Shown here piece after piece: positions 1,676 through 22,040 of a DNA stretch of 64,000 nt. The stretch is from Candidatus Gastranaerophilales bacterium. GTDB taxonomy: Bacteria; Cyanobacteriota; Vampirovibrionia; Gastranaerophilales; Gastranaerophilaceae. The notes beneath the pieces were generated by a model that did not search any database, was not told where the DNA came from, and saw only the letters and a program-made list of their open reading frames with translations. Position 1 is the stretch's first letter. Every line of letters starts with the position of its first letter. The stretch is from positions 62,001 through 126,000 of the forward strand of contig CALVEM010000004.1 of assembly GCA_944326605.1 (NCBI GenBank). The letters are read 5' to 3'. Both the position numbers and the translations under genes were made by a program.

Positions 1676-2428
1676 CTACTCCCTAACCTGAGGCAAGTTC
1701 AAACGAAAATAAAACTGTTTTATCGCATCCTGTACAAGCTGTGATTCTCTTTCCATCGGCTTGTATTTTAATTCGCTGTCGTATGGAATAACACCCAGAA
1801 CATCCAGATCATATCGTTTTAAAAGTTCATAAACGGATGTCAAATCGGTATTTTCAACCTTATTTATTACAACACCGAGCTGGTTTCCTGCTGCGTATTT
1901 TGCGCTGAATTCCTCTATACGTTTTGCAAGATGCGCACTTTCATCTGTCGGATTTGCAACAATAAGTGTTGTGTCAATGTCGGTATCCACAAGCTGATTT
2001 AAATATTTTAAATCAAACTCACAGTCAAAAATTACTATATCATAACGTTTTAAAAGTTTCAAAACCGCATCATTAATCTGACCTGTAATCGGGCAGCGAC
2101 AGTCTTTTGATCCTACAAACCACGAAACAATTATATCTACATTGTCATACAGCGATACCACAATATCTTCCATTGCCCATTCAACAAATTCCTGCTTGCT
2201 CATACCTTCGGGAATTCCTGTTTTATATTCGTGTTTACCGCTTCTTATACCGTAAATTGTGTTTCTGATATCCAGACCGAAGCTGTGTGCAAGTTCGCTT
2301 GTCAAATCATTATCAAACAATAAAATTGATTTTTCGGGAAAATATTCCTGAAAAATTCTCAGAAAAGCTTTCGTAATTGTTGTTTTTCCGCTTCCGCTTT
2401 TGCCTGTTAATGCCAGTTTAAATGTCAA
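1676..2428 (-). CDS. CooC/MinD-type ATPase with a CxC metal motif
   Basis: 250-residue SIMIBI-class P-loop protein. The deviant Walker A GKSGSGKTT (residues 9-17) keeps the signature lysine of the MinD/CooC group. A CxC pair (C110, C112, in KDCRCP) lies where CooC nickel chaperones carry their dimer-bridging metal-binding CxC. FDCEFDL is the likely Walker B-like aspartate region. Known CooC/AcsF proteins insert nickel into CO dehydrogenase/acetyl-CoA synthase. No such enzyme is in this window. The gene overlaps the methyltransferase upstream by 4 bases and precedes folD by 2. I infer a maturation or activation role for a metal- or corrinoid-dependent one-carbon enzyme; the substrate is unknown. 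Confidence 0.72.
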   Translation of the reverse strand: MTFKLALTGKSGSGKTTITKAFLRIFQEYFPEKSILLFDNDLTSELAHSFGLDIRNTIYGIRSGKHEYKTGIPEGMSKQEFVEWAMEDIVVSLYDNVDIIVSWFVGSKDCRCPITGQINDAVLKLLKRYDIVIFDCEFDLKYLNQLVDTDIDTTLIVANPTDESAHLAKRIEEFSAKYAAGNQLGVVINKVENTDLTSVYELLKRYDLDVLGVIPYDSELKYKPMERESQLVQDAIKQFYFRLNLPQVRE

Positions 2429-3543
2429 ATTAAGTACCTTTCTTTCAAACTCTCAGATAATTCTTTTGTCAAATCCATTGCTTTTATTGCCAGTTCTTCG
2501 CTCAGTGAACCGGCACCGCATGATGGCGTTACCAGAGAATTATCTATAATGATTTTCTCATCAATTCCTTTTTCAGTCAAATATTTTACAGCTTTTTCAA
2601 AAACATTAATCATTTTATTTAAATCTGCTTTCTCAAGTAAATCCTCATTGAGTGTAGGAACAACGCCCCAGGCTATTTTTCTCCCTTCTTTAAAATATGC
2701 TTCAAGATAATTATTAAAAAGACTGAAATTCTGGGAATAAGCATAGGCATCAAGGTTAATAATATCTACTCCGGCTTTTATTGGAATAATCCAATCGCAT
2801 TTGCCGCAACAGTGGATAGCACTCATTGCCCCGTTTGCTTTTATTAAATCGGATATTTCTTTTAGCATTGAAATAACTTCTTCCTGCGAAATTGTTATAA
2901 ATGCTGATGTCCCCAGTTGAGATATTGAAGGTTCATCAATAAAAATAATTGGGATTGTGTTTTCATTTGCTGATTTTATTTGTTTAATCTGCCATAAAGC
3001 TTTCAGGGTAAGAGTTTTAACAATAATTTCTCTTAATGTTTCATCATAAATTGCACATTTGCCTGTTTTGTCAACTAAAGTTGTAGCAAGTGTGAAAGGA
3101 CCGACAATCTGTCCTTTTGCGTAAGATGGTTTTGTCTCTTTAACAATATCAATAAATTTCGGGAATGATAAAGAATAATTTATTGCATATTTTTCTATTG
3201 TGCCGGGTAAATCCCTCCATCGGTTACGCGGTTCCCCTACCTTTTCAATGGAGGTATAAGAGATAATTTCTTCATAGTCACAGAAAAATTGTTCAATATC
3301 TGAAAAAAATTTATCGCTTTCTGTTTCAAGATAAGTTTTCCCTGAAATTTCGTCTGAAAAAAACGAAGGCATATTTTCCAGAAACTGGACAATCATGTCT
3401 TCGTTTTTACTTATTTTTGGTAATTGTGGCCAAAACGGAATTGATTTGAAATCTTTTCTGACAACTGCCATGGCATCTTCTAAGTTGTTTTGCGGTAAAG
3501 AGCCGATTGCAAGACAGTTGAGTTTCAAATTGTCAGCCATCAA
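2425..3543 (-). CDS. MetE-core (cobalamin-independent methionine synthase-like) methyltransferase
   Basis: 372 residues covering a single UroD/MetE-type barrel, not the two-domain MetE of about 750 residues. The zinc site is visible: H244 and C246 in AIHCCGKC, and C342 in TPSCGAG, matching the HxC...C pattern of MetE. Short MetE-core proteins include folate-independent methionine synthases that take methyl groups from corrinoid proteins, so corrinoid-dependent methionine synthesis is one option; a methylthiol or methylamine:corrinoid enzyme is another. It is translationally coupled to the CooC-like ATPase. Residues about 95-112 are encoded by a copy of a 48-bp palindromic repeat, so this copy has a 16-codon insertion. 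Either of the two adjacent N-terminal methionines could be the start. Confidence 0.72.
   Translation of the reverse strand: MMADNLKLNCLAIGSLPQNNLEDAMAVVRKDFKSIPFWPQLPKISKNEDMIVQFLENMPSFFSDEISGKTYLETESDKFFSDIEQFFCDYEEIISYTSIEKVGEPRNRWRDLPGTIEKYAINYSLSFPKFIDIVKETKPSYAKGQIVGPFTLATTLVDKTGKCAIYDETLREIIVKTLTLKALWQIKQIKSANENTIPIIFIDEPSISQLGTSAFITISQEEVISMLKEISDLIKANGAMSAIHCCGKCDWIIPIKAGVDIINLDAYAYSQNFSLFNNYLEAYFKEGRKIAWGVVPTLNEDLLEKADLNKMINVFEKAVKYLTEKGIDEKIIIDNSLVTPSCGAGSLSEELAIKAMDLTKELSESLKERYLI
3209..3256. repeat. 48-bp palindromic element inside a coding region
   Basis: Matches the intergenic element at 5853-5900 at 41 of 48 positions with no gap. Ends are CCCTCC and GGAGG in inverted orientation, with an ACCGC...GCGGT-type inner hairpin that is degraded in this copy. 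It lies wholly within the MetE-core reading frame and adds 16 codons (around EKVGEPRNRWRDL) with no stop or frameshift. Confidence 0.85.
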
Positions 3544-5200: not shown

Positions 5201-5848
5201 CTATTTCATATCCGGAAAGTAATATTTAACCCCGTTATCGCTGCGCCATCTTATATATCCGGTTTTTGGAACTCTGTCTATATCATAAACACTTACCAGC
5301 GCCCAGTTTCCTCTTATTACGTTCAAATTTATTTTTTGCGGCATATTTATTGTTCCGACAACCTGTGATTTGTCATCGGTAGATGTGTGTAAATCTTTTG
5401 CGCTGTCGGGAGCCTGTTTTAATATTTTTAAACCGTATTTGCGTCCGTACATATTGTAAAACATTACCCAGGTCATAAATCTGTATGGATCTTCATCTTT
5501 TTTAAGCCAGCCTTTAGCTCCGGTATTATTGTTATAGATTACCTGAACCCAGTCTTCTGTTTCATCTGACACTGCAAGAAGCCCTAAATTTTTTGACGGA
5601 ATAAATACCACAAACAAGTCGTCTGCTTTTATTTCCGGCGGGAAAATTTTTTCGCCGTTGAAACTTATACTGTGTATAATATGCGATTTTTCAGACGGTT
5701 GTTCATACAGTGTGAGCTTATCAGTTGCCTGATAAAGACCGAATGTGTTTGTGTATTCAAGGCTTACATTCTGAGGAATTACATCGGCACACAAGCCTTG
5801 GAAAGGTATCAGTAACATTATTATTATTGTTAAAAAGAATTTTTTCAT
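5201..5848 (-). CDS. Secreted SH3-like domain protein
   Basis: 215 residues with a Sec signal peptide (MKKFFLTIIIMLLIPFQGLCA, cleavage near residue 21). Two bacterial SH3-like stretches are suggested: one around residues 40-115, with LTLYEQPSEKSHIIHSI early and DWVQVIYNNNTGAKGWLKK at its end, and another around 150-205, with DLHTSTDDKSQVVGTI and NWALVSVYD...TGYIRW at its end. SH3b domains usually bind peptidoglycan or other wall polymers in the periplasm. No catalytic domain is attached. It stands alone, convergent with the prepilin and 2 bases from its stop. Confidence 0.7.
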   Translation of the reverse strand: MKKFFLTIIIMLLIPFQGLCADVIPQNVSLEYTNTFGLYQATDKLTLYEQPSEKSHIIHSISFNGEKIFPPEIKADDLFVVFIPSKNLGLLAVSDETEDWVQVIYNNNTGAKGWLKKDEDPYRFMTWVMFYNMYGRKYGLKILKQAPDSAKDLHTSTDDKSQVVGTINMPQKINLNVIRGNWALVSVYDIDRVPKTGYIRWRSDNGVKYYFPDMK

Positions 5849-5852
5849 ATTA

Positions 5853-5900
5853 AAATCCCTCCACCGCTTATGCGGTTCCCATCCCTTTGCAAGGGAGGTA
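5853..5900. repeat. Intergenic copy of the 48-bp palindromic element
   Basis: CCCTCC...GGGAGG inverted ends around an ACCGC-TTAT-GCGGT hairpin. It is the better preserved partner of the copy embedded in the MetE-core gene (3209-3256). It begins 5 bases upstream of the SH3 protein's start codon, so it occupies that gene's 5' leader. Confidence 0.8.
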
Positions 5901-5962
5901 GTGTTTATTTACCAGTATATCCATATTTTTTTTACCCCTTTATTTTCCCTATCTAACTCACT

Positions 5963-5996
5963 CGCGGATAACGGGGTTGCAACGCCGTTATCCGCG
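5963..5996. repeat. GC-rich 12-bp hairpin
   Basis: CGCGGATAACGG and CCGTTATCCGCG form a perfect stem with a 10-base loop containing GTTGCAAC. No T-run follows, so it is more like a repeat element than a terminator. A second hairpin GGAGCG-GCTA-CGCTCC lies at 6065-6080 and contains the pheT stop codon in its loop. Confidence 0.6.
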
Positions 5997-6071
5997 CGCC
6001 GCCGTTTCGCCTTCAGCTTGTTCGCGCTCCTCAAAAGGGAGGGGACAAAAAATAATATGTGGGTGGAGCGG

Positions 6072-22013: not shown

Positions 22014-22040
22014 TCCCTCTCCCCATTTGTGGGAGAGGGA
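22014..22040. repeat. CCCTCTCCC/GGGAGAGGG hairpin repeat
   Basis: TCCCTCTCCC and GGGAGAGGGA form a 10-bp stem with loop CATTTGT just after rdgB. The same theme recurs near 16050, 22430, 23803, 24230 and 24737, so it is a dispersed repeat, and here it might also end the rdgB transcript. Confidence 0.6.

Follow-up and report, generated by a model that had tools for sequence, protein, structure and literature searches.

Two copies of a 48-bp repeat

We analyzed a window of 64,000 nucleotides from the genome of a Candidatus Gastranaerophilales bacterium (contig CALVEM010000004.1). The genome is small, AT-rich, and of a gut type, and the best DnaX model is the cyanobacterial PRK14948, both of which probably fit Gastranaerophilales. 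It contains two copies of a 48-bp repeat, one inside a gene for a methyltransferase-like protein and the other just upstream of a gene for an SH3-like protein:

2425..3543, minus strand: host gene, methyltransferase-like (URO-D/MetE-like, no formal family); 372 amino acids, intact, with a TTG start as listed
3209..3256, minus strand: element copy in frame; 48 bp; 66.1 bits with our model R1
5201..5848, minus strand: downstream gene, SH3-like, 215 amino acids; weak match to Pfam SH3_3, below the cut-off
5853..5900, minus strand: second copy in the window, upstream of ORF 5201–5848; 74.6 bits; hairpins on the 5' side and the GGAGGG tail toward the start codon
5857..5862, minus strand: GGAGGG end of the element in the Shine-Dalgarno position; GGAGG lies 9 nt before the ATG at 5848–5846

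When we realigned the two copies, we obtained the same result as the preliminary description of this DNA: both are 48 bp, they align without gaps, 41 of 48 positions are identical, and the similarity breaks off sharply at these ends.

The consensus of the element is TACCTCCCTTGTAAAGGGAGGGGAACCGCGTAAGCGGTGGAGGGATTT, and its modal length is 48. It has two adjacent hairpins, hairpin 1 (CCTCCCTT/AAGGGAGG) and hairpin 2 (CCGC/GCGG), followed by a tail, GGAGGGATTT. By "palindromic" we mean these two hairpins and the short inverted ends, CCTCC...GGAGG, which are only 5–6 bp. Hairpin 2 has compensatory changes (e.g., CCAC/GTGG); its pairs were counted directly, and the structure of alignment A2, which misaligns hairpin 2 (24% paired), was left out. 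The consensus lacks stop codons in four of the six frames, and the other two require just a loop change.

In the genome (2.05 Mb), searches by DNA, pattern, and covariance model (R1) gave about 12 strong copies, with E values down to 1e-23; related species have more than 110 copies. We extracted 116 copies with their flanks. The preliminary description had suggested searching the genome for further copies, and there are many, several of them inside genes. The 22-mer core of the element has zero matches in dinucleotide shuffles, and a search of the window against Rfam gave no matches.

In a sister species (G024), the element also forms tandem arrays with a 70-bp period, and several of these reach the ends of contigs (L112, L114, L113, L108, L109). 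The unit is the 48-bp element plus a 22-bp AT-rich linker with TAAACAT at its end. Shorter arrays of two units are found in the source genome (G000; L106 and L105) and in G020. At 1501–1552 of L185 (G029), there is a variant with a different middle hairpin (TGGCTGAACGAAGTTCAGACGGAGGGATTT), which suggests a modular family whose hairpin 2 is exchangeable.

We considered that this might be a REP/BIME-type element that is moved by a RAYT (Y1) transposase. This would fit the small adjacent hairpins, the tandem arrays in G024 with their 70-bp period, and the compensatory changes (CCAC/GTGG). However, REPs are defined by a GTAG or CGTC tag, and the element has neither; its conserved ends are CCTCC and GGAGGGATTT. 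Furthermore, Y1 genes were not found in the element-rich genomes G015, G017, G018, and G024, and G006 and G007 do have Y1 but gave no copies of the element. We set aside Y1/RAYT as the mover for lack of co-occurrence with the element, and we think that a REP/BIME-type element is unlikely.

Distribution of the element

Of 146 relatives, about ten species in this genus have strong copies, as does one other genus of the same family (G081); most of the remaining species have no strong copies. The element had been described as this lineage's own. But a scan with one genome per species found the core (hairpin 2 plus the tail) in 119 or more stretches, and Clostridia/Oscillospiraceae account for nearly all of these; nearly identical copies of the element are frequent in Clostridia. 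Among the 120 copies in the Clostridia-type matches that were listed, only L316 is read through in a conserved protein, and few are at gene starts. (L316 has the sequence of a contig from G024.) When one exact pattern defines both sets, 3 of 25 copies are in frame here versus 0 of about 118 among the listed matches (P = 0.005, Fisher's exact test). In-frame copies may thus be rarer in Clostridia than in this genus, but the contrast is only suggestive because diverged copies within genes escape the exact pattern.

Copies at start codons

The copy at 5853–5900 lies upstream of the SH3-like gene, with 4 nt between its end and the start codon, and orthologous copies precede this gene in G015, G018, G020, G024, and G030. 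The preliminary description placed this copy between genes. It is not a neutral spacer, as its GGAGG is at the Shine-Dalgarno distance from the ATG. The source genome contains the anti-Shine-Dalgarno sequence GCTGGATCACCTCCT.

We grouped orthologous copies from the genus (excluding loci found only in G029; G081 belongs to another genus), which gave 27 independent loci. In 10 loci, the GGAGG tail is right before a start codon; 9 are in-frame groups; and 8 are others. Under random relocation, 8% of loci would be at a start codon, instead of 10/27 (P = 2.5e-5, binomial test). Almost all of the start-codon copies are in one orientation, and the reverse is nearly never seen. Conserved genes with a copy at the start include (names by eye) PheS, HydF, TsaB, an FAD protein, and the SH3 protein of the window, besides others. 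In some genes, the start codon arises at the junction, with TTG or GTG replacing ATG. In species without the element, the same genes have unrelated leaders that bear their own Shine-Dalgarno-like stretches. The accessibility of GGAGG averages 0.51 in the start-codon class versus 0.29 (P = 0.002). These patterns suggest that ribosomes use the GGAGG end. The ribosome-binding site is a second tolerated landing place for the element, which goes beyond the preliminary description. In a restricted literature search, we found no report of MITEs that supply Shine-Dalgarno sequences and no report of repeats in Gastranaerophilales.

Could the start-codon copies be a conserved regulator in 5' leaders (an RNA switch), and the source of the copies within genes? 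These copies are orthologous across species with similar spacing, they bear an anti-Shine-Dalgarno sequence (CCUCC) that could pair with the Shine-Dalgarno sequence, and the tandem 70-bp units have an AT-rich linker. However, the genes are unrelated in function, many species have no copy at the same gene, and in Clostridia the element is abundant and mostly away from gene starts. An RNA switch seems quite improbable to us.

Other sequences also caught our attention. At L249, L250, and L253 (G014 and G003), other repeats or decayed copies give GGAGG or GAGGG right before start codons. In the window, a GC-rich patch at 5960–6070, between the SH3-like gene and an 822-amino-acid ORF (PheT-like by eye), has an inverted CGGATAACGGGGTTGCAACGCCGTTATCCGCG palindrome and is possibly another repeat family.

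An insertion in the methyltransferase-like gene

The methyltransferase-like protein has orthologs in 52 of 58 relatives, and the motifs HCCGKC and DEPSISQ are conserved among them (alignment A3). We take its HCCGKCDW motif to recall the URO-D/MetE fold class. The repeat had been described as lying inside a MetE-core reading frame. The copy at 3209–3256 is indeed wholly within ORF 2425–3543 (minus strand), and the frame stays open, but neither Pfam nor NCBIfam calls the protein MetE: the only match is to URO-D, below threshold. A PDB search gave only low-complexity-like matches to PPR proteins, which we disregarded, and an AlphaFold model that was built with no alignment (pLDDT 38.6) was not used.

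The predicted translation of the insert lies within Y-TSIEKVGEPRNRWRD-L, at about residues 96–112. It is present in the source species (G000) and its sister G024, and it is absent from G014, G011, G008, G021, G032, and others. The surrounding sequence is EEIIS-YTSIEKVGEPRNRWRDLPG-TIEKYAI in G000 and EKIIS-YTSLAKGEDPRKRWRDLPD-AIEKYAI in G024, while the nearest empty orthologs have EEIISDINSDTIEKYAI. So the alignment of orthologs, which the preliminary description had proposed as a check, bears out its account in that the 16-residue segment is missing from them. Its figure of exactly 16 added codons does not hold: the net gain relative to the nearest empty orthologs is 42 nt, or 14 codons, because some of the old codons are gone. 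The copy in G024 is closer to the consensus than the copy in G000 (68.6 vs. 66.1 bits).

G020 has its own copy in this gene (36 bits; EEIIH-CFPCESEGDRLRWKD-CEKILDKYAI), in the same loop, shifted by a few residues, and in another frame. In the gene tree, G000 and G024 group together (support 0.97) and G020 is distant from them, so these are two separate insertions. The sequences place the first insertion in an ancestor that G000 and G024 share. Between these two species, the insert has 7 nonsynonymous and 1 synonymous changes; outside the insert, the gene has 45 and 108 (P = 0.002, Fisher's exact test). In the copy in the window, selection seems to act on the reading frame only.

We also noticed that in G015, the same loop of the ortholog (L429) has an unrelated 8-codon insert (NCHSVQNHA). 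And the orthologs from G012, G028, G010, and G023 (L440, L441, L442, and G023:C15) lack residues ~64–122, which contain the insertion loop; this region is dispensable.

In-frame copies in other conserved genes

In-frame read-through was found for 26 of the 116 copies; these occupy 16 sites, spread over about 13 conserved genes with long ORFs. Three genes have two sites each: the U32 peptidase, the methyltransferase-like gene (two events), and MurF (in different species). The others are TsaD, an M24 peptidase, MiaB, MetH, DnaX (best model PRK14948), a GH38 mannosidase, a NapH-like ferredoxin protein, an FAD oxidoreductase, an RlmD-like methyltransferase, and QueE. The families were confirmed by NCBIfam or Pfam, except that the methyltransferase-like protein has no formal family and QueE was identified by eye.

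For six sites, we compared filled genes to empty orthologs at the DNA and protein levels. Every net gain is a multiple of three: +42 nt for the gene in the window, +45 for TsaD, +30 for the M24 peptidase, +45 for MurF, +48 for MiaB, and +51 for U32 site 1 (our counts from the alignments). Since these gains vary (+30 to +51 nt), insertion may not be clean. The insert in MetH is missing in solved methionine synthases. For about half of the 16 sites, the basis is an open frame within a recognized family. At least four frames of the element are in use: TSLAKG.PRKRWRD and.LPCKREG..AVEGF, and, on the opposite strand, NPSTA.AVPLPFSREV and KSLHRFVVPLPLTREA.

At U32 site 1, where four species were compared, the insert has 4–5 synonymous and 0–1 nonsynonymous changes between G017 and the others (P about 0.002; the numbers are small), which hints that this peptide may itself be constrained. 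The U32 gene tree has a pattern that points to transfer between species, and gene trees conflict among loci; if species have exchanged filled alleles, there may have been fewer events than it seems. Other hairpin-forming repeats (e.g., LTCPSDTLSRKGRGK) occupy the loops of TsaD, U32, and MurF in G009 and G003, also in frame. These loops serve as landing pads, with the element as one among several visitors. As judged from these sequences, in-frame insertion does occur, has happened repeatedly, and is in part old; the inserted peptides are predicted.

Conserved proteins of G009, G029, and G003 also contain in-frame copies of a second, C/G-rich family of hairpin repeats, with peptides similar to SPLPLGEG or LSHKGRGE (L181, L154, L158, L167, L218, L223, and L212). 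One C/G-rich hairpin repeat of this second kind is in the window, at about 22015–22039.

It is very improbable that the segment in the methyltransferase-like protein is an ordinary variable loop that resembles the repeat by chance or through gene conversion: the loop does vary, with an unrelated insert in G015 and four species that lack all of residues 64–122, but the copy matches the model with 66 bits, the copy in G024 is even closer to the consensus (68.6 bits), and the same repeat is in TsaD, MurF, MiaB, U32, and the M24 peptidase, each with empty orthologs.

A proposed very small mobile element

We propose, with good confidence, that this is a very small (48-bp) non-autonomous mobile element that is kept where insertions are bearable, in loops or at the Shine-Dalgarno position. 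The two hairpins with the GGAGGGATTT tail would be the mobile unit, moved by a transposase acting in trans. The choice of site is probably close to random, and only those insertions that the host can bear would survive selection. The makeup of the element is unusually easy to bear. Because the frames are mostly free of stops and the usual length is divisible by three, the element could be read as a loop of ~15–17 residues wherever a protein already tolerates changes in length. The insert peptides are probably made. The end of the element would be a ready-made Shine-Dalgarno sequence, so a gene that an insertion cuts off from its ribosome-binding site would receive a new one. No target duplication is evident in the six comparisons of filled and empty sites, whose pairs have diverged, and no recent precise excision was found. 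A search that covered the Y1 family linked no transposase to the element.

We also speculate, tentatively, that the element might be built for harmless landing in loops and at starts, and that some of the peptides (U32 site 1) might have been recruited and be under purifying selection. If so, such elements would regularly supply gut bacteria with new loops and with swapped ribosome-binding sites.

Comparison to known repeats

Rickettsia palindromic elements (RPEs) are dispersed hairpin repeats that are found in frame in many conserved, unrelated genes (PMC10969869, PMC2229807). Similarly, our element is a dispersed hairpin repeat that is in frame in several unrelated conserved protein genes, with the frame kept. 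The preliminary description's comparison to protein invasion by RPEs was apt, and the element appears to work like an RPE; this is a likeness in behavior, and we do not claim membership. RPEs comprise ten families. They are 105–150 bp and form one long stem-loop, while our element is 48 bp with two short hairpins. Also unlike RPEs, it is found in Clostridia as well as in this genus, it has Shine-Dalgarno-like ends at gene starts, and at least four of its reading frames are used.

REPs and BIMEs resemble the element in size class and in being made of hairpins. However, they carry a tetranucleotide tag (GTAG or CGTC beside the hairpin, as described in part in PMC3733652) and track Y1 transposases, and the element does neither. 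REPs are extragenic by definition, while the element is also found in genes. ERIC, the 107-bp NEMIS of Neisseria, and YPAL/RU-2 are small non-autonomous repeats that are partly fused in frame with genes (PMC2229807). They are about 100–170 bp, and several have longer terminal inverted repeats, target site duplications, and TA ends, none of which were seen in the element.

A 2024 review described Rickettsia as the unusual case of protein-invading palindromes, with the same merely conjectured for other prokaryotes (PMC10969869). The in-gene habit has so far been best known from Rickettsia. A protein-invading palindrome is now seen in a genus for which 33 species have been sequenced, which makes empty and filled alleles, the ages of insertions, and selection on the inserted peptide directly measurable. 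And if the end of the element does serve as a Shine-Dalgarno sequence, as we propose, hosts would tolerate a mobile element in a second manner as well.
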